Positions 23,830 through 27,938 of a stretch of DNA of 64,000 nucleotides are shown piece by piece. Origin of the DNA: Exiguobacterium alkaliphilum 12/1 (GTDB taxonomy: Bacteria > Bacillota > Bacilli > Exiguobacteriales > Exiguobacteriaceae). Made by a program: the position numbers and the translations under genes. The stretch covers positions 1 to 64,000 of the forward strand of contig NZ_JJMW01000022.1 of the NCBI RefSeq assembly GCF_000714435.1, written 5' to 3'. Every line of letters begins with the position of its first letter. Position 1 is the stretch's first letter. Below the pieces are notes generated by a model that did not search any database, was not told where the DNA came from, and worked only from the letters and a program-made list of their open reading frames with translations.

Positions 23830-25875
23830 TTAACTGATGGCTTGTTGTTTACTTTGTAGCTCATGCATGCGGGCGTAGACACCGCCGTCTGCGATGAGCG
23901 ATTGATGGTTCCCGCGTTCGATGATGTGACCATGGTCGAGGACGAGGATTTGGTCGGCTTCTCGAATCGTCGACAGGCGGTGGGCGATGACAAATGTCGT
24001 CCGGCCTTTCGTCAGCGTCTTAAGCGCCTCTTGGATGAGCGCCTCTGTCTCTGAATCGACACTCGCTGTCGCCTCGTCTAGGACGAGGATGGCCGGGTCG
24101 AAGACGAGCGCGCGCGCGAAGCTGATCAGTTGTCGTTCACCGCTCGAAAGCGATGCGCCACGTTCGATGACCGGTTCCTCTAGTCCGTTCGGCAACTGCT
24201 TGACGAAGCGGTCGGCTCCGACCGCCGTGAGCGCCCGCCAGACGCGCTCATCGGAAATCGTCTCGTCGCCGAGCGTCACGTTCGTCTTAATCGACCCCGT
24301 AAACAGGAACGGGTCCTGGAGGACGATGCCGAGATGGTCACGGACCGCTTGTGTCGGCAGTTTTGTCACGTCCATCCCATCGATGTTGAGCGCCCCATGT
24401 GACGGATCATAGAAGCGCATGAGCAGGTTCATGATTGAGCTCTTGCCACTTCCGGTATGCCCGACGAGCGCCACCGTTTCTCCAGGTGCGGCGTGGATGT
24501 CGATGTGTTGGAGCACCGGTTTTCCGGCCTCATAACTGAACGAAACGTCATCGAAGACGACTTCGCCTTTAAAGCGTGGGATGCGTTCTGACGACACGTC
24601 TTCCCCTTTCTCATCGAGCAACTGGAACATCCGGTCTGCCGAGACGAGCGCCTGCTGGAGTGGCGACAGTTGGTTCATGATTTGCGTCACCGGCTCGAAA
24701 ATCCGTGAGACGTAATCGATATACGCGTACAGAATCCCGAGCGTGAGCACGCTGCCCGTACCGAGCGTCTGCGCCCCAACGACCCAGATGAGCAAGGCAA
24801 GTGCCATATTGCGGAAAAAGTTGACCAAGTTGTGCGACATGAGCGCGTCGAGCTTGAGCAACTTCCGACGCGTCTGGAAATTGTCACTGTTCTTCTCGTT
24901 GAACTCGTCATAGACGAGGTCTTCTTTCACATACGATTGAATGATTGGCATCGTTTGAATGCTTTCATTCAATTGGGCGTTCATATCGGCGACGAGTGCC
25001 CGCACCCGGAAGTTGTTCCGTGTCGACAGACGTTGGAACAACTTGATCCAGACGATGACGACCGGGATGATGATGAGCGAGACGAGACCGAGTCGGACGT
25101 CTAAGAAGAACATGGCGATCAAGACACCAATCATCATGACGACGCTTTGGAATACACGGGCAAGGACGCCTAAATAAAGGTCGCGAATCGTCTCGGTGTC
25201 GTTCGTGACCCGGCTGACGATTTTCCCGATTGGTGTCTGGTCAAAGTAACGCACAGGAATCGTCTGTAAGTGCCGCATGACATCGAGCCGCATCGTCTTG
25301 ACGATTTGGTGGGCCGAACGTTGGAGGAGCATCTGTTGTCCCCAGTTCAACCCTGCCGCAATCAAAAGCAAGATGACATAAAGTCCGGATAAGAAGAGGA
25401 CAGCCCGGAGATCTGTCTCATAAAATCGGAACACGTCCGTCGATGAGAGCGGCACGATGTTTTCGTAAGTGGCGGCCTCATCGCTTCGCGTGATGGTGAG
25501 GACGTCGTTCTCTACTTCGCGGACTCCCCCGCTCATGACGGCATCCGGTACGAGATAGTAGCCATCTGTCGTCTGGACGATCGAGACCGGCCGGACGACC
25601 GTCTCCCCGTCGAGTCTTGATTCTTTCTCGTAGACGTTCCCGGCAAACGAGACGCTACCCCCTGATTCGACTTGTACCCAATCGCGCTCGATGGCGACGA
25701 TATGGTCGTCAATGATGATTTTTGCAATATACGGACCGGCAAGTTCTGCGCCGACCGCTAAAAAGAGTAACAACAGACCTAGGAAAATCGAACGCTTCAC
25801 TTGTTTGGCATAGCCGACGAGTGAGCGAATCGTCTTTTTCCTGCGAACTGGATCTAATTCGTGTTGATCGATCAT
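23830..25875 (-). CDS. bmrD: heterodimeric ABC exporter subunit, BmrD/YheH type
   Basis: 681 residues from ATG 25875 (AAGGGGGA upstream). Distinctive of the BmrD/YheH subunit is a roughly 90-residue extracytoplasmic insertion between the first two membrane helices (about residues 60-150). ATPase domain: Walker A GHTGSGKSS, signature LSSGERQLISFARAL, Walker B with intact catalytic Glu ILVLDEATASVD, switch IAHRLSTI. It supplies the catalytic Glu of the one competent site when paired with the preceding gene. Multidrug export is the role known in B. subtilis; the substrate here is unproven. Confidence 0.88.
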   Translation of the reverse strand: MIDQHELDPVRRKKTIRSLVGYAKQVKRSIFLGLLLLFLAVGAELAGPYIAKIIIDDHIVAIERDWVQVESGGSVSFAGNVYEKESRLDGETVVRPVSIVQTTDGYYLVPDAVMSGGVREVENDVLTITRSDEAATYENIVPLSSTDVFRFYETDLRAVLFLSGLYVILLLIAAGLNWGQQMLLQRSAHQIVKTMRLDVMRHLQTIPVRYFDQTPIGKIVSRVTNDTETIRDLYLGVLARVFQSVVMMIGVLIAMFFLDVRLGLVSLIIIPVVIVWIKLFQRLSTRNNFRVRALVADMNAQLNESIQTMPIIQSYVKEDLVYDEFNEKNSDNFQTRRKLLKLDALMSHNLVNFFRNMALALLIWVVGAQTLGTGSVLTLGILYAYIDYVSRIFEPVTQIMNQLSPLQQALVSADRMFQLLDEKGEDVSSERIPRFKGEVVFDDVSFSYEAGKPVLQHIDIHAAPGETVALVGHTGSGKSSIMNLLMRFYDPSHGALNIDGMDVTKLPTQAVRDHLGIVLQDPFLFTGSIKTNVTLGDETISDERVWRALTAVGADRFVKQLPNGLEEPVIERGASLSSGERQLISFARALVFDPAILVLDEATASVDSETEALIQEALKTLTKGRTTFVIAHRLSTIREADQILVLDHGHIIERGNHQSLIADGGVYARMHELQSKQQAIS

Positions 25876-25897: not shown

Positions 25898-27622
25898 TTA
25901 CTCCGTCTCCCCTTGTCGAACGTATTGTTCATAATACCAACCGTGTCGTTCCATCAGTTGGTCGTGCGTACCGCGTTCCGTGACGCGGCCGTCTTGTAAG
26001 ACGAGAATCTGGTCGGCATGGGCCACGGCCGATAGGCGGTGGGCGACGATGAACGTCGTCTGTTCCGACCGGCTCGTCCGGACCGAGTCGATGATTCGTG
26101 ATTCCGTTTTCGCGTCGACTGCAGAGAGCGAGTCGTCGAGTAATAGAATCTCAGGGTCTTTGAGCAAGGCTCGGGCAATCGAGAGACGTTGTTTCTGTCC
26201 ACCCGACAGCATGACCCCTTGCTCACCGACGACCGTATCGAGTCCGTTCTCTAAATGATTGATATCGGTATCGAACGCCGCAAGGCGAATGGCCGTTTGA
26301 AGGTCGTCCTCGGTCGCATCGGCCGCCCCGAACAAGATGTTGTCGCGGACCGTCTTCGAGAACAGCAAGTGTTCTTGCGACACGTAGCCGCTCCAGCCTC
26401 GGACTTGTTCGAGCTTGATGTCTGAGATGGGGATGCCGTTGACGAGCAACGCATCGTCAATCGGGTATTCCCGGAGCAGTTGACGCAAGAGCGTCGTCTT
26501 CCCGGCCCCGGTCGGCCCGACGATCCCAATCGTCTCTCCGCGTGACACGTGGAGCACGATGTCTTCAAGCGACGCACGGTTTGACCCCGGGTACGTGAAC
26601 GTGAGCGACTTGAACGTGATCTTCTCAGGAACGGCGACATCCGTCGTCCCCGTCGACTCGACGTCTGGCCGTTCGTTCATCGTCGCTTCAATCCGCTCTA
26701 AGCTCGCCGTTCCGCGTTGGACGACGTTAATCAATTCTCCGAACGCATACATCGGCCAGATGAGCATCCCGAGATAAATGTTGAACGAGACGAGTTGACC
26801 GAGCGTGATGTCGTTCGTGAAGACGAGATACGTCCCGAACGACAGGCCAATCAAGTAGCTCAGTCCGACGAGTAGTTTGATGACCGGCTCGAACAAGACG
26901 TCGATTTTGGCGACGTGCATGTTTTTCGCCATGACGTCGTCGGTGATCGTGTCGAACTTCTTCGTATCCGCCTCTTCTTGGACGAACGAGCGGACGACAC
27001 GAAGCCCTGAAATCGATTCGACGACTTGGTCGTTCATGACCCCGAACGAATCTTGCGCCGCCGTGAAGCGTGCATGGATTTGGCGCCCGAGCTTGTTCAT
27101 CGACCAGGCGAGAATCGGCATCGGCAACAGTGCCGCGAGCGTCAGCTTCCAATCGATGAACACGCCCATGATGGTGAGCGCGATGAGCGTCATGTTGAAC
27201 GAATCGACGAGCGTCATGACGCCGAACCCGGCCGTTCGTTCGACCGCTTTCAAATCGTTCGTCGCGAGCGCCATCAAGTCACCCGTGCGATGCTGCTGAT
27301 AAAATCGCGGCGTCTGCCGAAGCAAATGACCAAAGAAGCGACCCCGCAATTTTTTCTCTAGCAGGAAGGCCGTCCCGAACAAGCGGGCGATCCACAAGTA
27401 CGACATGACGTACGACAAGACCATGATCCCGAGGAGCGACCCGACGATGAGGATGAGCCGCTCTGTCGTCAAACTCCCTTCCCGAATCGCATCGATCGCC
27501 TGGCCGATAATCCACGGTGGCAACATGTCGACGACACCCGTGATGATTAACAGAATGATGGCGATGAGATACGTCCGTTTTTGCCGTTTAATAAACCAAT
27601 CCAATTGTCTAATCAGTTTCAT
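25898..27622 (-). CDS. bmrC: heterodimeric ABC exporter subunit, BmrC/YheI type
   Basis: 574 residues from ATG 27622 (AAGGGGGAAATC upstream). Six membrane helices, then ATPase domain with Walker A GPTGAGKTT, signature LSGGQKQRLSIARAL and a degenerate Walker B end ILLLDDSLSAVD, where Asp replaces the catalytic Glu. That degenerate site is the hallmark of the BmrC half of BmrCD. Gene order (C then D, 22 bases apart) is that of B. subtilis. The start lies just behind an attenuator terminator. Confidence 0.88.
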   Translation of the reverse strand: MKLIRQLDWFIKRQKRTYLIAIILLIITGVVDMLPPWIIGQAIDAIREGSLTTERLILIVGSLLGIMVLSYVMSYLWIARLFGTAFLLEKKLRGRFFGHLLRQTPRFYQQHRTGDLMALATNDLKAVERTAGFGVMTLVDSFNMTLIALTIMGVFIDWKLTLAALLPMPILAWSMNKLGRQIHARFTAAQDSFGVMNDQVVESISGLRVVRSFVQEEADTKKFDTITDDVMAKNMHVAKIDVLFEPVIKLLVGLSYLIGLSFGTYLVFTNDITLGQLVSFNIYLGMLIWPMYAFGELINVVQRGTASLERIEATMNERPDVESTGTTDVAVPEKITFKSLTFTYPGSNRASLEDIVLHVSRGETIGIVGPTGAGKTTLLRQLLREYPIDDALLVNGIPISDIKLEQVRGWSGYVSQEHLLFSKTVRDNILFGAADATEDDLQTAIRLAAFDTDINHLENGLDTVVGEQGVMLSGGQKQRLSIARALLKDPEILLLDDSLSAVDAKTESRIIDSVRTSRSEQTTFIVAHRLSAVAHADQILVLQDGRVTERGTHDQLMERHGWYYEQYVRQGETE

Positions 27623-27657
27623 GACTGATTTCCCCCTTCCGCCCTTTCCATGCACGC

Positions 27658-27707
27658 AAAAAAGCGCACGTCACCTGATTGTGCAACCAATCGGATGAAG
27701 TGCGCTT
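27658..27707 (-). terminator. attenuator terminator in front of the BmrC-type gene
   Basis: On the minus strand AAGCGCAC and GTGCGCTT close a long stem that is extended by TCATCC/GGTGA and GATTG/CAATC pairs around GTTGCA, followed by TTTTTT. It lies between the leader peptide and the exporter start, so it must be read through for expression. Upstream segments near the leader stop (TTGAC with GTCAA, CTGC with GCAG) could form competing structures, but I could not fold them reliably. Confidence 0.85.
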
Positions 27708-27767
27708 GACAGTCTTCAGTCTTTTGCATGGTCAGGGAAAGGACACTACCCCTATCCAGCTGCCCGT

Positions 27768-27839
27768 TTAAGCAGTCAAATACGAGTAGCCATATGATGT
27801 TGTGTGTGTGCGTTGTAGTGTTGTGATGTACTTCATCAT
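27768..27839 (-). CDS. leader peptide, 23 residues, in front of the exporter operon
   Basis: Starts ATG ATG with GAGAGGAG five bases upstream, a stronger ribosome site than most genes here. It encodes MMKYITTLQRTHTT followed by a Tyr-rich end (SYGYSYLTA). It lies between the promoter and the attenuator hairpin. B. subtilis bmrCD is preceded by bmrB, a leader peptide whose stalled translation lets transcription pass a terminator in the presence of antibiotics; the same arrangement is seen here with no obvious sequence identity known to me. Too short for routine gene callers. Confidence 0.7.
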   Translation of the reverse strand: MMKYITTLQRTHTTSYGYSYLTA

Positions 27840-27878
27840 GCTGGCTCCTCTCGTTTCATAGTTTTAAAATCTACTAAA

Positions 27879-27908
27879 ACCTTAGCAGACTGTTCAGAAA
27901 ATTGTCAA
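27879..27908 (-). promoter_or_regulatory. promoter of leader-exporter-rtcB operon
   Basis: Minus-strand -35 TTGACA (complement of 27903-27908) and an extended -10 TGCTAAGGT (TAAGGT is the complement of 27879-27884), spacer 18 bases. The leader peptide start follows about 40 bases downstream. Confidence 0.65.
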
Positions 27909-27938
27909 TATTATTTTGTAAAGAAATTGTAATTTATT

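Follow-up and report, generated by a model that had tools for sequence, protein, structure and literature searches.

The window analysed here, a 64,000-nt stretch of DNA from Exiguobacterium alkaliphilum 12/1, probably carries a ribosome-controlled transcription attenuator in front of a bmrCD multidrug exporter operon on the minus strand, and we infer that this attenuator responds to drugs. Sequence comparison supports the leader open reading frame (ORF), the terminator, the BmrCD operon and a pairing between the ribosome-binding region of the leader and its own last codons (segments A and B). Ribosome stalling would be the signal that switches the RNA from this A:B pairing to an alternative B:C pairing, leading to antitermination and a response to antibiotics. 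The original prediction that the attenuation logic of Bacillus subtilis bmrCD also operates here is thus supported in outline, with stalling, switching and the drug response as its inferred parts. The comparisons favour conservation of an RNA architecture rather than of a leader peptide.

Leader region of the Exiguobacterium bmrCD operon

The operon downstream of the leader consists of a bmrC-type ABC exporter subunit gene (25898-27622, with its ATG at 27622) and a bmrD-type subunit gene (23830-25875, with a likely ATG start at 25875). Their best matches among solved structures are B. subtilis YheI (BmrC; E = 2.6e-205) and YheH (BmrD; E = 1.6e-203), respectively, both far ahead of all other solved relatives. 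Judged from these matches, the operon is of the BmrCD type and encodes an orthologous heterodimeric exporter, as originally predicted.

The leader promoter comprises a -35 element TTGACA (27903-27908), which is invariant in the aligned genus members, and a weak but conserved extended -10 element TGCTAAGGT (TG-C-TAAGGT, 27879-27887), separated by an 18-nt spacer. The aligned genus members keep the site, and an equivalent TTGACA marks its counterpart in a sister genus; a generic promoter scan of the region did not score it and found no site. A Shine-Dalgarno (SD) sequence AGGAG (27845-27849), invariant in 19 genomes, lies 5 nt before the ATG at 27839 and opens a 23-codon ORF encoding MMKYITTLQRTHTTSYGYSYLTA (27768-27839, stop codon included), which contains six Thr and four Tyr codons. 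The intrinsic terminator is a hairpin at 27664-27705 (5' arm F, 27705-27688; loop, 27687-27682; 3' arm G, 27681-27664) that starts 62 nt after the leader stop codon, has a predicted energy of -25.4 kcal/mol on its own and is followed by a conserved U6 tract (27658-27663). Internal mismatches probably explain why a pattern scan of the window region for terminators did not pick up this hairpin. The promoter, the ORF, the hairpin and the exporter start all lie on the minus strand where the original prediction had placed them; the ribosome site described there as strong is present, but it is a 5-nt match of only moderate strength. The fold of the whole leader (-83.8 kcal/mol) is far more stable than those of shuffled sequences (-65.0 ± 4.4 kcal/mol; z = -4.3; 0 of 200 shuffles). 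An Rfam search of the leader region returned no family and only chance-level matches, and a literature search yielded nothing about an Exiguobacterium bmr leader.

The leader element is present once in each of the 19 genus genomes examined, and its ORF is intact in all of them, as expected of a functional leader in the original prediction, with one in-frame 3-nt indel and either TAA or TGA as the stop codon. The C-terminus of the peptide, TSYGYSYLTA, is invariant in the 19 genomes with synonymous changes only, and the N-terminal half is variable across the genus. The peptide differs from that of B. subtilis, as had been proposed, but its Thr/His-rich N-terminal half is not conserved in the genus.

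The conserved C-terminal codons are also predicted to form RNA helices. Segment A (27834-27846), the SD/start strand of a putative anti-antiterminator, pairs through AGCCA (27846-27842) and AUGAUG (27839-27834) with segment B (27788-27799), which lies in the TSYGY codons and contributes CAUCAU (27799-27794) and UGGCU (27792-27788). The A:B duplex is stronger than expected by chance (p about 0.01 in the window and 0.006-0.015 in genus members), and its 11 pairs are kept in 19/19 genus genomes, yet without variation. The alternative hairpin B:C (27746-27789; CUACUC/GGGUAG, UAUUUG/UGGAUA and CUGC/GCAG), a candidate part of an antiterminator, has 16 pairs that are likewise kept in 19/19 genomes, with a single G-U to A-U change. 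Because the A:B and B:C helices are invariant within the genus, covariation is uninformative there. Segment C, together with segments D and E, belongs to an almost invariant 54-nt RNA after the stop codon (27711-27764). When a collection of about 85,000 species was searched for an exact 24-mer of this RNA, all 14 matching records were from Exiguobacterium. In the terminator, all 16 pairs are kept in the 19 genomes, with four wobble changes. Mutually exclusive folds, as the original prediction required, are thus predicted to exist, namely SD region with C-terminal codons, C-terminal codons with post-stop RNA, and the terminator; when no ribosome is present, the window RNA can form A:B and B:C at the same time.

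An additional predicted stem joins RNA that precedes the terminator (CAUGCAAAA, 27730-27722) to RNA right after the U-tract (UUUUGCGUG, 27653-27661), and would form only in readthrough RNA. It is kept in 19/19 genomes apart from one unpaired cell, and the equivalent readthrough-only stem in the sister genus (locus L041) covaries. A candidate outer stem, CCAUGCA/UGCAUGG, enclosing the terminator of the window was rejected, since it is not kept in relatives, whereas the shifted CAUGCAAAA/UUUUGCGUG version is.

Leaders of the sister genus, other Bacilli and B. subtilis

The sister-genus operon is orthologous (BmrC 70-73% identical) and is preceded by a leader encoding MK...(M/T)(A/T)ETLE(L/H)V and then a terminator. 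Evidence bearing on the covarying stems sought in the original prediction comes from this sister genus: its terminator shows both-side changes in 11 cells (only 1 of 500 shuffles was as high), and one position of its helix between the SD and the C-terminal codons is occupied by U-G, U-A and C-G pairs. The leaders of the two genera can be aligned for some pairs, strongly with L070 (0 of 300 shuffles) and more weakly with L041 and L048. In the alignment, the two genera read the shared sequences ATATGGC and ACTCGTAT in different frames, so that the homologous segment becomes AETLELV in the sister genus. These data point to selection that keeps the RNA pairing and not the peptide, a point that is suggestive, since only one of the three sister-genus sequences tried aligns strongly. 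The recX-like end of a gene appears directly upstream of the sister-genus leader, in place of the lactate permease gene (lctP) found in the window.

To place these leaders in a wider context, BmrC orthologs were collected across Bacilli, and 116 upstream regions were examined. In 66 of the 116 orthologs, bmrC is preceded by an SD-led ORF of 8-45 codons and then a terminator, an arrangement seen in 0 of 232 shuffled regions. The leader peptides are unrelated and fall into 35 clusters; in 23 of these clusters, which were defined by peptide similarity alone and may not all be fully independent, the SD/start region pairs with the last codons of the same leader at p<0.05 (1.8 expected; binomial 5e-22). 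When 34 ordinary genes within the window were used as a control, SD pairing with early codons was found in none. This predicted fold suggests that pairing between SD/start and last codons serves as an anti-antiterminator. Pairing of the last codons with post-stop RNA (B:C) is also enriched (9 of 31 leader types). For the terminator 5' arm, neither pairing with the SD region (A:F; 4 of 35 leader types) nor pairing with post-stop RNA (0 of 31) is enriched, and A:F pairing was rejected as a universal antiterminator. Total sequestration of the terminator 5' arm was likewise rejected as an antiterminator signal, as it did not exceed that of shuffled sequences in the window (21/100) or across the survey (median p 0.48). 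As judged from these sequences, the leader peptides of bmrCD differ among lineages generally, and homology to BmrB is not a defining feature.

A second SD-led upstream ORF (uORF), mostly of 17-27 aa and ending in a conserved (L/I)E(G/S)G-stop, was observed in 64 of the 116 bmrC orthologs. It immediately precedes the bmrC SD, at 28-53 nt before the point where the BmrC alignment begins (in L115, the B. subtilis ortholog, and in L160, L130 and others), and its Gly, Ser and Leu codons vary synonymously. This uORF is absent in Exiguobacterium, and no description of it was found in the literature. The sister-genus leader end ETLE(L/H)V (L041, L047 and others) resembles the ESLE(S/G)G of the second uORF of Bacillaceae, possibly by chance.

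B. subtilis bmrCD is known to be induced by lincomycin, erythromycin and chloramphenicol through an attenuator. When leader translation is removed, expression falls and induction is lost (PMC4191407), as an anti-antiterminator model predicts. In the leader region of a genome with a 100% identical YheI (L115:1168-1399), we found a perfect AAGGAGG and an ATG that open a 23-aa ORF, MPRNLRVYQTVSYWRGKPFVLFS, in a frame other than that of the annotated 53-aa BmrB, the GTG start of which falls inside the 23-aa ORF. In the B. subtilis group, all 17 genomes retain the 23-aa ORF, but about half have an interrupted 53-aa frame. As in the window, the SD of the 23-aa ORF pairs with its own last codons; this A:B duplex (-31 kcal/mol) gave p 0.001 in a dinucleotide shuffle and 0.16 in a synonymous-codon shuffle. 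In the work of Reilman et al. (2014), a BmrB-GFP fusion on a plasmid fluoresced but a chromosomal in-frame one did not, and the changes in their no-start mutant extended to 5'-UTR start codons or RBSs (PMC4191407). By sequence, the 23-aa ORF appears to be the better-supported B. subtilis leader, and the GFP and mutant data are consistent with this assignment without proving it. No paper re-assigning bmrB was found in the open literature. The original comparison with B. subtilis therefore holds for the kind of attenuator, but annotated bmrB is probably the wrong comparator, the 23-aa ORF in the other frame being the appropriate one.

Proposed mechanism and alternative explanations

In the default state, the nascent RNA would pair A with B as an anti-antiterminator, and transcription would stop at 27658. 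A ribosome inhibited on the SD or on early codons would prevent A from pairing, leaving B free to pair with C, the invariant RNA after the stop codon. The B:C hairpin would in turn free D/E to compete for the terminator 5' arm, allowing RNA polymerase to enter bmrCD, so that the pump would be made when ribosome-targeting drugs slow translation. Folds of the window RNA with a masked ribosome gave B:C together with D/E:F for a ribosome on early codons and C:D for one on late codons. Early stalling would fit drugs acting at initiation or early elongation, and it would leave the leader peptides free to vary. In the full-length RNA at equilibrium, the terminator beats every alternative fold; antitermination would therefore have to be kinetic. 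The candidate antiterminator is the weak link of the model: such folds are predicted, but sequestration of the terminator arm is no greater than in shuffled sequences.

The same C-terminal codons could instead encode a drug-dependent arrest peptide, in which the ribosome stalls on TSYGYSYLTA, or on its LTA-stop end, and the segment A thus freed pairs with the terminator 5' arm. The invariance of this peptide in the 19 genomes would be accounted for; moreover, masking late codons with a ribosome lets A and F form a duplex of about 14 bp in the nascent RNA, and the A:F duplex is stronger than in shuffles in three genus members (p 0.001-0.05). However, in the remaining three members tested the duplex does not reach significance, nor does it, as noted above, across Bacilli, where the leader peptides are moreover unrelated, and the two RNA helices carried by the same codons are enough alone to explain the invariance. 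We consider the arrest peptide unlikely, and rank it below the RNA-based attenuator because the reading frame of the homologous segment changes in the sister genus.

An amino-acid-starvation attenuator, in which Thr or Tyr codons would respond to the charging of their tRNAs as the trp and his leaders do, is very unlikely: the numbers of these codons in the window leader would suit it, but the downstream genes encode a drug exporter and not a biosynthetic pathway, Thr content falls in other genus members, and the sister-genus leaders contain few Thr and no Tyr codons. Equally improbable is that the terminator merely ends lctP transcription or fixes a low level of bmrCD, with the ORF being incidental or encoding a small protein. 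The gene upstream of the leader encodes an lctP-family lactate permease (lctP, 27939), and no terminator was seen in the sequence between it and the leader (27909-27938); the hairpin would therefore end lctP transcripts as well. Against a role confined to this function stand the leader's own promoter, the in-frame indel, the conserved SD and start codon, the invariant post-stop RNA and the fact that many families have the same arrangement ahead of bmrC.

Relation to known attenuators

The window leader resembles the B. subtilis bmrB leader (PMC4191407) in its orthologous exporter operon, own promoter, short leader ORF and intrinsic terminator before bmrC, and in the alternative RNA folds predicted here. 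It differs in that its peptide is unrelated in sequence to BmrB and that its terminator lies beyond the leader ORF, whereas the B. subtilis terminator is inside the annotated 53-aa ORF. The B. subtilis vmlR leader is composed of an anti-antiterminator, an antiterminator and an intrinsic terminator (AAT, AT and T), and the AAT contains a uORF (PMC9226507). The same order is predicted for the window, and A:B can be likened to SL-1 of vmlR as the anti-antiterminator; readthrough in vmlR is triggered by stalling on the uORF, as would be the case here. The vmlR uORF, however, has three codons and a single-stranded SD ahead of SL-1, whereas the window ORF has 23 codons and its SD/start region is itself a strand of the hairpin; vmlR encodes an ABCF factor rather than an exporter. 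In E. coli toiL-topAI, a multipurpose uORF is similarly proposed to sense several antibiotic classes through stalling at different positions (PMC12121999), but toiL acts on topAI translation and Rho-dependent termination and not on an intrinsic terminator.

There is about an even chance that Bacilli bmrCD operons in general share a peptide-independent sensor, in which SD/start and last codons are the strands of the anti-antiterminator and the peptide sequence is unconstrained, so that even a frameshift between sister genera is tolerated. In the same proposal, the 53-aa BmrB of B. subtilis would not be the sensor, the 23-aa ORF in the other frame taking its place, and the second uORF ending in LE(G/S)G-stop would add a layer of control in Bacillaceae. 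The analysis proposes a specific revision of the B. subtilis bmrB model and shows why peptide searches miss such leaders. The window locus itself joins a known type of attenuator. The wider pattern across Bacilli is the more interesting part, as it may provide a general rule, open to testing, for the way in which ribosome-targeting drugs turn on a common multidrug exporter.
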